From the NCBI RefSeq assembly GCF_900143245.1, contig NZ_FRDK01000007.1, forward strand, positions 124,001 through 188,000: a DNA stretch of 64,000 nt, written 5' to 3'. The stretch is from Flavobacterium fryxellicola (GTDB taxonomy: Bacteria > Bacteroidota > Bacteroidia > Flavobacteriales > Flavobacteriaceae). This document shows positions 3,401 to 64,000 of the stretch, in pieces. A program made the translations under genes and the position numbers. A model generated the notes under the pieces. That model was given only the letters and a program-made list of their open reading frames with translations, was not told where the DNA came from and ran no database searches. The stretch's first letter is position 1. Each line of letters starts with the position of its first letter.

Positions 3401-3487
3401 AATCCTAGCCCCGATTGAAGTGAAAATCCTTTTTGTCCGACTTTTTGGCGGATAAAAAGATTGCAACGAAAAGCGGGAAATAGCTTC
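3401..3487 (+). ncRNA. Flavo-1-like structured RNA element, copy 1
   Basis: One of four related intergenic elements in the window. An outer stem AGC-CCCG pairs with CGGG-AAATA-GCT. An inner hairpin runs AATC-(bulged C)-CTTTTTGTCCG against CGGATAAAAAGATT. The other copies have CCTG/CAGG in the outer stem, so this copy shows a compensatory U-A to C-G change. It fills the gap between the two 5'-nucleotidase genes. Assignment to Rfam Flavo-1 is from memory; the structure itself is read from the sequence. Confidence 0.6.
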
Positions 3488-4457: not shown

Positions 4458-7191
<2,734 letters not shown>

Positions 7192-13034: not shown

Positions 13035-13045
13035 TTTTTTATTTT

Positions 13046-13128
13046 TTAGCCCTGATAGCAGTGGAAATCCTTTTTTCTCGTTTCTTTAACGAGAAAAAAG
13101 ATTGCAACGAATAGCAGGAAATAGCTCC
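13046..13128 (+). ncRNA. Flavo-1-like structured RNA element, copy 2
   Basis: The best-formed copy. The outer stem is AGC-CCTG with CAGG-AAATA-GCT. The inner hairpin is AATC-(C)-TTTTTTCTCG with CGAGAAAAAAGATT around a TTTCTTTAA loop, with one bulged C as in the other copies. It points away from the DUF2147 gene and sits between it and the YihY gene. Confidence 0.65.
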
Positions 13129-27932: not shown

Positions 27933-27972
27933 TAGATTTTGAACACCATAATATCCTAATAAACAAATTCTA

Positions 27973-28042
27973 TAGCCCTGATGGCAGTAAAAATCCTCCC
28001 GTTTTTCAGGGAGATTGCAACGTACAGCAGGAAATAGCTCTC
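27973..28042 (+). ncRNA. Flavo-1-like structured RNA element, copy 3
   Basis: Outer stem AGC-CCTG with CAGG-AAATA-GCT. The inner hairpin is much shorter than in the other copies: AATC-(C)-TCCC with GGGAGATT around GTTTTTCA. The sequence of the inner stem differs entirely from copies 1 and 2, yet pairing and the bulged C are kept. It sits between the lipoprotein gene and kdsA, same strand. Confidence 0.6.
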
Positions 28043-60230: not shown

Positions 60231-60319
60231 GGGAGCTATTCCTGCTATTCGTTACACTCTTTTTTTCCTCGCTATGGCGAGTCCTAAAAAGGATTTTCAC
60301 TGCTATCAGGGCTAGGATT
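60231..60319 (-). ncRNA. Flavo-1-like structured RNA element, copy 4 (diverged)
   Basis: Read on the minus strand: AATCCTAGCCCTGATAGCAG at the start and GAATAGCAGG-AATAGCTCC at the end, keeping the CCTG/CAGG and AGC/GCT outer pairs. The inner stem has CTCGC/GCGAG next to a mispaired T/A-rich part, and the 3' GATTGC has changed to GAGTGT. It looks degraded. Confidence 0.5.
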
Positions 60320-60723: not shown

Positions 60724-61767
60724 ATGAACTGGTCTGCAAAACTCCTCACACACAAAAACGAAAAACGAATAGCCGTTTATTTCGACAAAAATGTCGAATT
60801 CATTGCCCGAATCAAACAAATAGACGGCGCACGATGGAGCCAATCTTTAGTAGCATGGCATTTACCTGACACGGAAGAAAACCGAGGACGGTTTAAAATA
60901 AAACCTGCCTCACCTTCTTTGCCGTCAGTTGAAGGAATAGAACAAATCGAAAAATTCAAACAATGGCTGCGCTCCAAACGCTACAGCGAAAGCACACTTT
61001 CAACTTATTCTGACGCGTTGAAATCCTTTTTTGTATTTTATCGGGAGAAACCTATTGCCCAAATTAATAACGAAGACGTAATTATCTACAACAACGAGTA
61101 TATCTTGAAAAACAATCTTTCGGCATCCTACCAAAACCAGCTAACCAACGCTTTAAAATTATACTTTGCGACCATTCGGGAAACCAAAATCGAAATAGAT
61201 AAAATTCACCGACCAAAACGTTCCAAAGTTTTGCCTAATGTATTGAGTAAAGAGGAAGTGAAATTAATTTTAGAAGCACACACCAATAGCAAACACAAAA
61301 CAATGCTTTCGTTGATTTATAGTTGCGGATTGCGTTGTGGCGAATTAGTAGCTTTGCAACCTGTGCATATCGACTCGAAAAGAAACATAGTCTTGCTCAA
61401 AAACGCAAAAGGCAAAAAAGACAGGATTGTACCCTTGAGTCCCAAAATACTAAAACTACTGCGCGACTATTACGCCCTTTATAAACCAAAGACCTACTTG
61501 TTTGAAGGGCAATTTGCAGGAAAACCTTATGATTCTCGAAGTCTGCAGCTCATCTTAAAACAAGCCTTGGTAAAAGTCAATATCAAAAAGCCTGTTACGC
61601 TACATTGGTTGCGCCATAGCTATGCGACTCATTTATTAGAAAGCGGAACCGATTTGCGATACATACAAGAATTATTAGGACACAACAGCAGCAAAACTAC
61701 CGAAATATACACTCACGTTAGTACGAAAAGTATTCAACAAATAAAAAGTCCTTTTGATGATTTGTAA
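60724..61767 (+). CDS. Tyrosine recombinase, Xer/integrase type
   Basis: A 347-residue site-specific recombinase. An N-terminal arm (1-60, with ARWSQSLVAWHLP) is followed by a SAM-like core-binding domain (about 72-155) and the catalytic domain with R204 (GLRCGEL), K229 (AKGKKDR), H294 and R297 (LHWLRHSYATH), H320 (LLGHNS) and nucleophile Y329 (EIYTHVS). Between K229 and H294 there are only about 65 residues, without the extra helix insertion of integron integrases. It is followed, in the same direction, by a cassette array with attC-like sites that it may recombine. Confidence 0.93.
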   Translation: MNWSAKLLTHKNEKRIAVYFDKNVEFIARIKQIDGARWSQSLVAWHLPDTEENRGRFKIKPASPSLPSVEGIEQIEKFKQWLRSKRYSESTLSTYSDALKSFFVFYREKPIAQINNEDVIIYNNEYILKNNLSASYQNQLTNALKLYFATIRETKIEIDKIHRPKRSKVLPNVLSKEEVKLILEAHTNSKHKTMLSLIYSCGLRCGELVALQPVHIDSKRNIVLLKNAKGKKDRIVPLSPKILKLLRDYYALYKPKTYLFEGQFAGKPYDSRSLQLILKQALVKVNIKKPVTLHWLRHSYATHLLESGTDLRYIQELLGHNSSKTTEIYTHVSTKSIQQIKSPFDDL

Positions 61768-61790
61768 GAAAAAAATAGTACATTTGATTA

Positions 61791-61873
61791 TAATATAAAG
61801 CGAAACAAACCTTCGCATATACACCCATTTTTAGGTAGATTGGCGAAGGTTTGTTTCGCCTATATACAAGTTA
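61791..61873 (+). other. attI-like site between recombinase and first cassette
   Basis: A 17-bp perfect inverted repeat (61800-61816 and 61843-61859, GCGAAACAAACCTTCGC) is extended by TATA/TATA pairing, then TACAA, then the junction G/TTACC at 61870/61871. The left side lacks a TAAC core but has TAA. The site has the same right-hand geometry as the attC-like sites downstream. The hairpin may also terminate the recombinase transcript. Confidence 0.55.
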
Positions 61874-61913
61874 CCAGCAATATTACCTCAAAACCGCATA
61901 AACAACTGAAAAT

Positions 61914-62426
61914 ATGAATGTTGAATATTTTAATTTAGAAAAACCTAACAGAACTTCCGAATTCGAAATATTAAGAAAGGAAGCATCTAATTATTTAATT
62001 GAACAGCAAAAAATTATTGAAGATGCTTATGGAATTCATAAATATGAAGATTGGTTTTATGACCAAGAAACTGGAATTCTCACTTTCTCAAATGCTGAAA
62101 CAAAAGATAAAATTGTAGAAATACGATATGAAGAAGTTGGAAGTATTTCGAACATTAGTAAAACTTGGCTTTGGAGTTGGGCAAATCAACATATAGAACC
62201 GAAAGTTAAAACTGAAATTGAATTCGTAAGAGATTATGGAAAGGAAAATGACTTAGAATCTTTGACAAAAAGTAAATGGTTTGCGGACGAATATGATGCT
62301 TGGGAAATGACTGCAATTTCAGCTTATTTAATGAAAGCAAAAGGTGCTTATAGATTTCCATTAGAAAATACATTTTCATTTGTAATATATAAGGAAATAA
62401 TAAAACTTGAAAAATACTGCTTGTAA
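61914..62426 (+). CDS. DUF6882-like cassette protein
   Basis: A 170-residue soluble protein with the pattern ILTFSNAETKDKIVEIRYEEVGSIS, KTWLWSWAN and WEMTAISAYLMKAKGAYRFP, which I recognise as the DUF6882 family. Function unknown. The ATG is 43 bp after the cassette boundary. The stop codon is formed by the attC-remnant sequence at 62413-62445, a sign that the gene runs to its cassette end. Confidence 0.75.
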   Translation: MNVEYFNLEKPNRTSEFEILRKEASNYLIEQQKIIEDAYGIHKYEDWFYDQETGILTFSNAETKDKIVEIRYEEVGSISNISKTWLWSWANQHIEPKVKTEIEFVRDYGKENDLESLTKSKWFADEYDAWEMTAISAYLMKAKGAYRFPLENTFSFVIYKEIIKLEKYCL

Positions 62427-62445
62427 AAGCAATATTAGCTCAAAA
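62413..62445 (+). repeat. Remnant of a cassette junction inside cassette 1
   Basis: AATACTGCTTGTAA (62413-62426) resembles the attC left core AATACTGCTGGTAA at 62901. It is followed by AGCAATATTAGCTCAAAA (62428-62445), which matches the start of cassette 1 (61876-61893) at 17 of 18 positions. Left and right cores are directly joined, without the hairpin between them. Confidence 0.6.
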
Positions 62446-62456
62446 AAACTAAAAAT

Positions 62457-62810
62457 ATGATTTCAGAAATATTAGAATTTATTTCAACCCTAACTAGTTT
62501 ACCGAATCGAGAAACAAAACCAAATGAATCTAAAAAGGAATTTATAGTTTTTTTGTCATACTTAATAGCAATAGTCTCTTTGATTTTTATTGTTCCTGAG
62601 TTTAAAATTATAATGAAAAATGAAAACTCAAAACTTTTAATTATCTCGAATATTTTTACTTCTTTTATTTTATCATTAATTGTAATAAGCTTAATAAAGA
62701 AAATGAAAATCGTAGATGACTTAATTTTTACAACATTTATAACTATAATGATTGCTATGTTTTTACTTTTTTTTCTTATCACATTGTTGCTTATAAATAA
62801 TTATATTTAA
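62457..62810 (+). CDS. Small membrane protein in cassette 1
   Basis: A 117-residue protein with three hydrophobic helices (about 28-50, 60-82, 88-116) and a charged N-terminal segment SLPNRETKPNESKKEF. No family recognised. It starts 30 bp after the DUF6882 stop, with a leader similar to that of the DUF6882 gene (AACTAAAAATATG against AACTGAAAATATG). It was probably once a separate cassette. Confidence 0.6.
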   Translation: MISEILEFISTLTSLPNRETKPNESKKEFIVFLSYLIAIVSLIFIVPEFKIIMKNENSKLLIISNIFTSFILSLIVISLIKKMKIVDDLIFTTFITIMIAMFLLFFLITLLLINNYI

Positions 62811-62900
62811 AAGATAAAATGTAATTGAAACTAAAATTTGGCATAATATAAAGCTGGAAAATGATTTAGAAAAAAAACTTTGAAAAAACGAAATAAAAAA

Positions 62901-63041
62901 AATACTGCTGGTAACAGCGGTTTGCAAAAATGGCGAAATATGTGGTAAATTCACGTTTATCTTTCGCAATAAATTTTATCTTAGCCGAAAAATCTCGGTT
63001 ACGAAGTTCGCCACTTCCGCAAGCCGCGAGACGTTAGCGGT
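62901..63041 (+). repeat. attC-like recombination site 1
   Basis: Left core GCTGGTAAC (62907-62915), 1-nt spacer A, inner arm GCGGTTTGC (62917-62925), a second pairing TGGCGAA/TTCGCCA (62931-62937, 63007-63013), a long loop, inner arm GCAAGCCGC (63019-63027), 5-nt unpaired GAGAC (63028-63032), right core G/TTAGCGGT (63033-63041). This is the attC architecture: two stems around an asymmetric unpaired spacer. Confidence 0.7.
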
Positions 63042-63651
63042 CAGTTGTGAAAAAAAAACGTGATAAACAGAATCAATGAAAAATAATAAATATTTGAATT
63101 TTATTCCAATAATATTCAGTTTGATAGTTGTTTCTTTTTTTTTATTAAGGGCACAGAATGAAATTAACTATTTTAAAGAAAACAAAATCAATTTGAAAAT
63201 CATAAAGGTTGATAATTATTTTGACAAATCATTGCAATTTTACTACGATGAAAATCATTGCATAACTACAACTGACACAAAAAACGACACGCTACGAATT
63301 GGAGATTCAATTTCAAAAATAAATAACAGTACTAAATTTAAAGTATTCAGAAAAAATAAATTCGGAAAATATACTTTTTATAATGATTATGAAATTTCAG
63401 GGATCTGATTATTAATAGATCAAACTTGAAAATGAAAGTCTGAAAGCTTGAGTTTGAAAGCAGAAACTTGAAAAATGAATTTAATATTGATAAAATGAAA
63501 ATTCTGACTCACGAGATAACCGAACCGCTAACACTTGCTACAAGAGATTTGGGCATTTGGCTTAATTTAAAAATGGTCTTGTATTTGGGAGATTTGGCAA
63601 GTCCGAAAATAAGGCTTAATTTAACCCCAAACCTCTTGTAGCAAGGGGACG
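63034..63651 (+). mobile_element. Integron-like gene cassette 2
   Basis: 618 bp from TTAGCGGT (63034) to the G of G/TTATGCGG (63651). It has one small gene and an attC-like site. GTTAGCGGT at its start is perfectly complementary to ACCGCTAAC (63524-63532), the left core of its own site. Confidence 0.75.
63076..63408 (+). CDS. Small membrane-anchored cassette protein
   Basis: A 110-residue protein with one N-terminal membrane helix (FIPIIFSLIVVSFFLL, about 9-24) and an extracytoplasmic domain with strands (KINLKIIKVDNYFDKSLQFY, TLRIGDSISK). No family recognised. The only gene of cassette 2, starting 42 bp after the boundary. Confidence 0.65.
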   Translation: MKNNKYLNFIPIIFSLIVVSFFLLRAQNEINYFKENKINLKIIKVDNYFDKSLQFYYDENHCITTTDTKNDTLRIGDSISKINNSTKFKVFRKNKFGKYTFYNDYEISGI

Positions 63652-63660
63652 TTATGCGGC
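63518..63660 (+). repeat. attC-like recombination site 2
   Basis: Left core ACCGCTAAC (63524-63532), 1-nt spacer A, inner arm of 20 nt (63534-63553, CTTGCTACAAGAGATTTGGG), a 72-nt loop containing GGCTTAATTTAA twice (63559-63570, 63613-63624), inner arm 63626-63645 pairing with one mismatch, 5-nt unpaired GGGAC (63646-63650), right core G/TTATGCGGC (63651-63660). The same 1-nt against 5-nt asymmetry as site 1. Confidence 0.78.
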
Positions 63661-64000
63661 ACTTTAAAAACGACAGACCGAAATGCTAAATTGGTTCAAA
63701 GGACATAAACATTCAAAATATAGAGAAATCCTTCTCAATGCTTTTCCACGGACTTTGAAAAAGGACGTAGAAAGCGTATTGGATATTTTACCCTTTAAAG
63801 AAAATGATGTAAAACTTTGTGACGGAAAAATTCATAAAGTGGAAAACTTAATTCATCCTGACATTCAAACAGTCAATCTTGAAGGAGAACTTTTGACTAT
63901 ACCATACAGAGTTTATTTTAACGAACCTGATATTGAAAAGGAAACAACATTGACAAACCGACAAAAATCAATTCTCAACTGTATTTTTCTTCGACATCAT
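63652..64000 (+). mobile_element. Integron-like gene cassette 3, partial (cut by window end)
   Basis: Begins TTATGCGGC at 63652 and runs out of the window. Its gene starts 31 bp in. Its own attC-like site should lie downstream, with a left core close to GCCGCATAAC. Confidence 0.6.
63683..64000 (+). CDS. Hypothetical cassette 3 protein, partial
   Basis: An open frame from the ATG at 63683 to the end of the window (106 codons): MLNWFKGHKHSKYREILLNA at the start, then FPRTLKKDVESVLDILPF and LTIPYRVYFNEPDIEKE. Soluble, no signal peptide, no family recognised with confidence. Truncated by the window edge. Confidence 0.6.
   Translation, partial: MLNWFKGHKHSKYREILLNAFPRTLKKDVESVLDILPFKENDVKLCDGKIHKVENLIHPDIQTVNLEGELLTIPYRVYFNEPDIEKETTLTNRQKSILNCIFLRHH

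Follow-up and report, generated by a model that had tools for sequence, protein, structure and literature searches.

Which enzyme, if any, moves the small genes lined up at the end of this stretch of Flavobacterium fryxellicola DNA? The stretch, referred to here as the window, is the whole 64,000 nucleotides analysed, positions 124001-188000 of contig C18 (192,162 bases) in a genome of 3.71 Mb. At its end, a tyrosine recombinase gene is followed in the same direction by small genes and long imperfect hairpins, which a first-pass annotation had read as an integron-like cassette array behind a recombinase that would not be an integron integrase (IntI) and might even be unrelated to the array. 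From the sequence comparisons presented below, we consider it highly probable that a non-IntI recombinase runs this locus as a chromosomal, integron-type platform for gene capture in Bacteroidota. The argument is built on the structure of the cassette sites (attC), the G/TT boundaries at attC and at the site beside the recombinase (attI; the slash marks the cut), the imprint of a circular cassette, exact copies of one cassette at attI and inside an array, the varying contents behind attI, and the failure to detect IntI.

Cassettes, attC sites and the attI-like site

As in an integron, tandem cassettes each close in an attC that has R and L boxes and folds into a stem, the layout being 5' RYYYAAC, one base, stem, loop, stem, five to six bases and GTTRRRY 3'. 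Nine sites of this genome were aligned over 142 columns and compared with a hand-written structure of AAC/GTT plus a 17-pair stem. Pairing holds in 98.9% of the cells and 14 of the 17 stem pairs have changed on both sides, with a covariation of 0.633 versus 0.148 in shuffled alignments and at most 0.104 when the structure is slid, a score reached by none of 500 shuffles, which bears out the attC layout proposed for the array. An initial hairpin scan was too permissive, and its matches besides the named sites were discarded. The covariance model made from the nine sites (R1), which these match by construction and whose E-values are rough, has 21 matches in the genome, at least one match (E<=0.01) in 87 of 101 genomes of the genus, and matches in ten of 12 mostly complete genomes, where up to 32 (genus), 16 (phylum) or 150 (12-genome set) were scored per genome. 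Two complete genomes of the genus, G042 and G076, gave zero R1 matches and act as a negative control. After removing the second match on the other strand of one site, which reduced 105 matches to 89 sites, 70 of the 89 attC are more stable when folded as the bottom strand and 18 as the top strand, a mean difference of 2.0 kcal/mol that is suggestive only.

The array continues to the end of the contig, with attC-like sites at 4601-4737, 5772-5901 and 6724-6852 of locus L009 (C18 positions 184001-192162, so that the window coordinate is L009 + 60000), and further attC-like sites lie on contigs C29, C36, C37 and C23, several of them close to contig ends. The first-pass annotation had named an end of such sites at 64 kb, or an invariant gene order in relatives, as findings that would speak against a cassette array; sites go on past 64 kb, and the sequence after attI differs between genomes.

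Directly 3' of the recombinase stop codon there is a palindrome centred on ACCCAAATTTGGGT, followed by YATATACAAG/TT. The first-pass annotation had given a hairpin to every unit. This holds for attC 1 and attC 2 (Table 1), whereas the one at 61800-61859 is this attI-like palindrome, which stays with the recombinase in relatives and is not an attC. An alignment at attI was possible for 26 of the 30 recombinase loci in the genus; of the others, L023 has partly lost the site, L026 and L034 run into a contig end and L043 has no site. G/TT stands at the same place, followed by divergent bases, in 24 of the aligned loci, and G/AT in two (L027 and L040), so the unit of recombinase and attI is common to related genomes and what comes after the cut is not. 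The arms vary across these 26 loci in a compensating manner (covariation 0.417 versus 0.175 shuffled and at most 0.131 slid). A shared site with a G/TT cut, changing contents and a cassette found both there and deep in an array is what an attI platform beside the integrase, serving as the entry of cassettes, would look like. A form of GCGTATATTTATGAG/TT occurs further from the stop codon in seven of the 12 more distant relatives listed, with a looser form in G073, and the genome itself has an attI-like site on C36 and another on C23, both with cassettes behind them and without a recombinase match. Separately, related sequences stand directly behind attI in L023, L027, L040 and L164, resembling GGAAAAATCGCCCTTCGGGAC in L023, L040 and L164; no Rfam match was found at that place.

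If a cassette had once been a circle, its start should be complementary to its own attC at the left core, and not to the attC it abuts. In the window array, the first nine bases agree with the own attC in all five complete cassettes, as do 11-14 of the first 15, and the remaining bases of the intron-interrupted cassettes of C18 and C36 match their own attC as well. The pattern could be followed on a larger scale in G073, whose 252 attC sites across 177 kb, located by a pattern that ignores the variable bases, hardly vary and are uninformative for covariation. There, 245 of 251 cassette starts (97.6%) match the left core of their own attC at six or seven of the seven variable bases, compared with 11.6% each for the abutting and the next attC and 8.5% for a random one.

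Movement of cassettes with breaks at G/TT is seen, by sequence comparison, in the single contig of G045, where 34 attC sites follow the recombinase (242428-243468, minus strand) and share its strand. Cassettes of 715 and 754 base pairs (bp) are present three times each at 100% identity, two of the 754-bp copies in tandem; a 732-bp cassette is present three times (100 and 99.7% identity) and one of 647 bp twice (99.8%), its second copy beginning without a detected site. A 1227-bp cassette has two 100% identical copies, one at attI (GCATATATACAAG/TTGGCGG) and the other deep in the array after an attC (GGAACG/TTGGCGG), with differing far flanks. In these copies identity spans from cut to cut, ending 2-13 bases past it. 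A search for shared cassette DNA across 150 genomes returned mostly attC sequence; as a separate observation, cassette 3 of the window resembles a whole shared cassette in G129 (77% over about 1.09 kb). The G045 contig (C1) also carries five copies of a different tyrosine recombinase of about 328 amino acids, 37% identical (195670, 199644, 511288, 2170710 and 2175320), two of them just past the far end of the array and one beside an attC match, which may be part of a mobile element.

The recombinase and its link to the arrays

The recombinase consists of an N-terminal extension of about 70 amino acids, a SAM-like domain and a catalytic domain, in which R204, K229, H294, R297, H320 and Y329 form the R-K-H-R-H-Y set of the IntI type, at the positions already read in the first-pass annotation. 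What it does not have is the additional domain of IntI between the catalytic lysine and the HxxR motif. The interval from K229 to H294 is 64 residues long; it measures 63-64 in full-length array-linked relatives (68 in one of them), 69-71 in seven resident Xer-type recombinases and 105-106 in eight IntI. An AlphaFold model built from 38 sequences (mean predicted local distance difference test, pLDDT, of 88.6, with residues 322-330 around the catalytic tyrosine below 50), used in place of a single-sequence fold of pLDDT 37.7, places no helix at the IntI insertion and holds just helices 240-253 and 271-284 in this stretch. Together with the phylogeny below, these data uphold the proposal of a non-IntI recombinase without the extra helix. 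In the structure search, the best PDB matches by E-value are of XerA type, and integron integrase 2a3v has the top template modelling score to the query, 0.62, among the 50 matches listed. The N-terminal domain is modelled as beta-beta-alpha-beta-beta-alpha, and Pfam HARP matches one of the 38 aligned members (E 5.1e-6). Forked DNA is a substrate to which HARP domains bind, and this HARP-like domain is a candidate for the recognition of folded or branched DNA.

The integron integrase model TIGR02249 gave 193.4 bits in two stretches, under its cut-off of 265, compared with 371-507.5 bits, all above the cut-off, for eight IntI controls. Among the NCBIfam equivalogs, XerA comes closest (213.2 bits, cut-off 220), followed by XerD (180.3, cut-off 329.6) and XerC (179.3, cut-off 335.15), whereas seven resident Xer-type controls score 318-327 with XerD or 261-267 with XerC, and 101-144 with the IntI model. 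Missing the Xer cut-offs is a poor test, since these controls, trimmed to their matched part, are themselves below those of XerD and XerC (up to 326.8 and 287.9), three of the seven passing that of XerA. NCBI annotates one member as 'site-specific tyrosine recombinase/integron integrase', so that a hint of the function was already in the annotation.

Trees were built from 109 (quick) and 83 (careful) of 140 rows, leaving out partial or decayed proteins, many near copies and, in the careful one, long-branch rows. In the 83-row tree, the eight IntI form one clade (100/100) with the window recombinase outside it, and the rows nearest to IntI (95/92) are insertion-free recombinases from Patescibacteria and Bacillota. 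Flavobacterium aciduliphilum is found among the near relatives. The seven resident Xer-type rows form another clade (100/100), also separate from the window recombinase, and IntI and the array recombinases are on the same side of the 100/100 branch that divides them from the Xer rows. A scan of viral contigs found a single weak partial relative, 31% identical over 67 residues. Relatives also occur in records labelled as non-Bacteroidota, namely metagenome-assembled genomes of Spirochaetota (L102) and Undinarchaeales (L104), both with the N-terminal extension, and Oceanirhabdus (L113), perhaps by binning error or transfer.

Within the genus, recombinase relatives (E<=1e-60) are present in 48 of the 101 genomes, which have a median of 15.5 attC matches, versus 4 in the 53 genomes without (p 4e-5, up to 32 scored per genome). 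Across the phylum, 91 of 296 genomes, from 61 of the 139 genera covered, have a relative (E<=1e-50); attC matches (E<=1e-4) were obtained in 84 of 198 genomes, which represent 50 of 102 genera. Among the matches listed, counted by eye, 22 phylum genomes have both within 20 kb, with attC downstream on the same strand in 18 and upstream on the same strand in one. In named genomes, attC lies downstream on the recombinase strand (E<=0.05) in 18 of 57 loci searched, including those of Algoriphagus ornithinivorans, Winogradskyella ursingii, Zunongwangia mangrovi and Algibacter onchidii. The recombinase is found directly ahead of attI and array in many relatives, that of the 252-site array among them. 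Two Chryseobacterium plasmids carry it at about 70% identity, one with six attC matches behind it (E<=6e-4), so the system can reside on plasmids. A search with an IntI protein (E<=1e-25) found none in the 101 genomes of the genus, and recovered all four positive-control genomes at E 1.6e-78 or better; it replaced TIGR02249, which was silent over the 101 genomes but also over 14 control genomes.

From these data, a mechanism can be proposed. The recombinase would capture circular cassettes by crossing their attC with the attI palindrome directly behind its own gene and, the cut falling between G and TT, each new cassette would enter beside attI in one orientation, while cassettes would be cut out, copied and reordered through crosses between attC sites. 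If classical integrons are a guide, attC would probably react as a folded single strand, more likely the bottom one. The recombinase would act without the additional domain of IntI, its HARP-like N-terminal domain being the candidate for handling folded or branched DNA.

By their sequence, the tet(X) and blaVEB resistance genes look like cassettes of this platform, which would have been transferred since. In a plasmid of Empedobacter brevis (L170), tet(X2) lies between two attC matches of 41.0 and 59.0 bits, and the bases at its cassette start, TTATGTGCC, are complementary to the left core of its own attC, GGCACATAAC. In an Acinetobacter plasmid (L166), tet(X3) begins identically. It lies 189 bases behind a recombinase with 45.8% identity, and after it comes the apparent left half of such an attC, at which R1 gave no match. 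The cassette of blaVEB-1 in a class 1 integron starts with TTAGCGGTAATTTAACCAG directly after attI1; R1 matches its attC weakly (24.7 bits, E 1.1e-4), and in L169 it matched the blaVEB attC alone and not those of the neighbouring aadB cassette. The same TTAGCGGTAATTTAACCAG precedes blaVEB-3 in a Klebsiella plasmid (L168), after ATATTAGGGAG and behind a 51%-identical recombinase, with no R1 match. Repeated elements of 135 bp have been reported in the surroundings of blaVEB (Naas 2006, as cited in PMC3668210). One cassette start has therefore been joined to both kinds of attI at G/TT.

Several points weigh against the proposed platform. The attI arms pair in just 69.9% of the cells and a fold of two local hairpins scores about equally (0.431, 70.3%), so that a folded attI is not established. 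The array-linked recombinases may or may not be one clade in the tree (two changes, with one side of a branch in 6% of the bootstrap trees). Of the 53 genomes of the genus without a close recombinase, 43 have at least one attC match and 13 have ten or more, which suggests that arrays persist without it or that something else serves them. The classical arrangement, with attC upstream on the opposite strand, is found in G022, G058, G084, L089, L103 and three of the phylum genomes; the common direction noted in the first-pass annotation is thus frequent in relatives and not universal. The IntI search used one query protein, which a very divergent IntI could escape. Finally, IntI is held, in the excerpts of the literature available, to need its additional domain for integron recombination, in which case integron hallmarks without this domain would mean that attC can be handled in another way or that the requirement is mistaken.

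The array may instead be moved by a classical IntI, elsewhere or formerly present, with the adjacent recombinase as a bystander. This would account for the clusters in genomes without a close recombinase and for the attI-like sites and cassettes of C36 and C23, and classical IntI is evidently able to use a blaVEB cassette. However, a bystander is made quite improbable by the empty IntI search of the 101 genus genomes, by the position of the recombinase directly before attI and array in so many relatives, by the copy, within the G045 array, of the cassette standing at that very attI, and by the higher number of attC in recombinase-positive genomes. The shared recombinase-attI unit, that cassette in both places, the two medians and the lack of a detected IntI also largely answer the initial doubt about whether recombinase and array belong together. 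Even though intergenic hairpins are often terminators, and XerA comes so close to its cut-off, it is barely credible that the hairpins are ordinary repeats or terminators and the recombinase a Xer protein or the integrase of another element: terminators predict neither starts complementary to the own left core nor identical copies ending at G/TT, the XerD and XerC scores are far from those of the resident Xer-type proteins, whose clade excludes the recombinase, and attC matches are absent from the complete G042 and G076. A phage integrase, or one of an integrative and conjugative element, beside an operon was considered and rejected as well.

It is also unlikely that the recombinase is a true IntI which has lost its additional domain, the locus being then a derived classical integron and not a separate lineage. 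The attC boxes, the G/TT cut and at least one cassette start are common to both systems, the IntI model scores well above its values for resident Xer, and the array recombinases share the side of IntI in the tree; but the rows nearest to the tight IntI clade are insertion-free and the array recombinases fall outside it, so that the absence of the domain looks older than IntI. As for the independent or divergent system suggested in the first-pass annotation, independence of origin does not follow: the position relative to IntI is not settled by the tree, and the blaVEB start occurs in both systems.

Beyond the non-IntI platform itself, we see an evenly balanced case for a broader proposal, in which Bacteroidota would hold a phylum-wide second integron lineage whose integrase has been without the IntI additional domain from the start and may read folded attC (and a folded attI palindrome) through its HARP-like domain, with arrays of 250 or more cassettes, a source of cassettes such as tet(X) and blaVEB in hospital bacteria, and missed by surveys because of their domain-based definition. 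The attC type being present in 87 of 101 genomes of the genus, integrons of Bacteroidota may look rare only under the old definition. The origin of integrons would become testable with insertion-free relatives, and there would be a concrete route for tet(X) and blaVEB to become mobile cassettes.

Layout of the locus and contents of the cassettes

The features of the locus are collected in Table 1. Genes a and b form one cassette, since a single attC serves both, which corrects the first-pass annotation; cassette 1 is possibly two cassettes fused after loss of the attC between them. The cassette 3 protein matches Hfx_Cass5, 'Integron Cassette Protein', with 70.7 bits (cut-off 25, E 1.2e-19).

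Table 1. Coordinates of the recombinase, the attI-like site, the cassettes and their attC sites in the window
Feature	Position	Strand	Basis or remark
Tyrosine recombinase open reading frame, 347 amino acids (aa)	60724..61767	+	Open reading frame call, profile matches, structure model
attI-like site: palindrome arms 61800-61825 / 61834-61859, then CTATATACAAG	61798..61870	+	Predicted cut after G61870 (G61870/TT)
Cassette 1, 1163 bp	61871..63033	+	Starts GTTACCAGCAATATT; 14/15 positions match the left core of its own attC read as reverse complement
Cassette 1 gene a, 170 aa, DUF6882 (PF21813)	61914..62426	+	Profile match
Cassette 1 gene b, 117 aa, no family match	62457..62810	+	Leader similar to that of gene a (repeats D4, D5)
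attC 1	62906..63041	+	Predicted cut G63033/TT
Cassette 2, 618 bp	63034..63651	+	Cut to cut
Cassette 2 gene, 110 aa	63076..63408	+	No family above cut-off
attC 2	63523..63659	+	Predicted cut G63651/TT
Cassette 3, 1078 bp in total, continuing past the window to L009:4729	63652..64000	+	Cut to cut
Cassette 3 gene start, 308 aa, complete at L009:3683-4609	63683..64000	+	Pfam PF18287 Hfx_Cass5

Eight cassette proteins (five from this genome and three from G073) were searched against Pfam, and five matched: Hfx_Cass5, GmrSD, FRG, AAA_21 and RES, the last one below its cut-off. The G073 cassettes comprise 172 protein families. The longest open reading frame follows the direction of the array in 221 of the 251 and opposes it in five, while 25 have none of at least 40 amino acids.

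Several insertions interrupt attC sequences. The last left core of the C18 array, at L009:7554, is split by a group II intron; such introns lie on the opposite strand inside an attC left core at L009:7554-8162 (C18) and L011:7317-7923 (C36), both at contig ends, and match Rfam RF00029 with 38.3 and 37.4 bits, slightly below the gathering score of 40. Matches to group II introns occur also within the Chryseobacterium plasmid array L164. Group IIC-attC introns target attC sites and, by analogy, these introns may do the same. An insertion-sequence-like element with ends CAGGCTGTGAA and TTCACAGACTG, present in several copies on L010 (C29:1-6000), splits attC-like sites between ACG and TT. Flavo-1 RNA (RF01705) is found four times in the window (3403-3484, 13044-13125 and 27970-28038 on the plus strand, 60234-60317 on the minus strand), one of the copies about 400 bases upstream of the recombinase, with a further copy ahead of the attI of C36.

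Comparison with known systems

IntegronFinder looks for IntI. With IntegronFinder 2.0, one complete integron of Bacteroidetes, in Salinibacter ruber M1, has been found, and earlier Bacteroidetes work had In0 alone, according to the sections of that article available (PMC9024848). Likewise, in the excerpts at hand, an earlier survey retained matches with the additional domain or an 'intI patch' (PMC2426708), and the additional domain is named as the defining characteristic of integron integrases (PMC9668308). Among the closest known groups is the 'Integron-like' subgroup of tyrosine recombinases (Smyshlyaev 2021, PMC8138268), in which the catalytic-domain insertion is not fully conserved, so that insertion-free members had been seen; the portions of that paper available make no mention of such members at cassette arrays. 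In the PMC literature under CC0, CC BY and CC BY-SA licences, screened by titles and the beginnings of abstracts with preprints outside the scope, no paper was recognised as describing such a system.

With XerA, XerC and XerD, the window recombinase shares the catalytic fold, and its best hidden Markov model and PDB matches are XerA. It differs from them in XerC and XerD scores far lower than those of resident Xer proteins, in its separate clade, in the interval between lysine and histidine (63-64 versus 69-71 residues) and in its linkage to cassette arrays.

The locus further resembles the classical sedentary chromosomal integrons, which also have arrays of up to hundreds of cassettes in one orientation, RYYYAAC and GTTRRRY boxes, a G/TT cut, clusters without an integrase, insertions in attC and cassette genes mostly of obscure function. 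Contrary to these, the integrase here does not have the IntI additional domain and carries one more domain at its N-terminus, the attI located at the 3' end of its gene is a long palindrome that covaries, and the attC stem has 17 pairs with an asymmetric spacer of one versus five to six bases. Integrase and array usually run in the same direction here, even though some classical integrons also have this arrangement.

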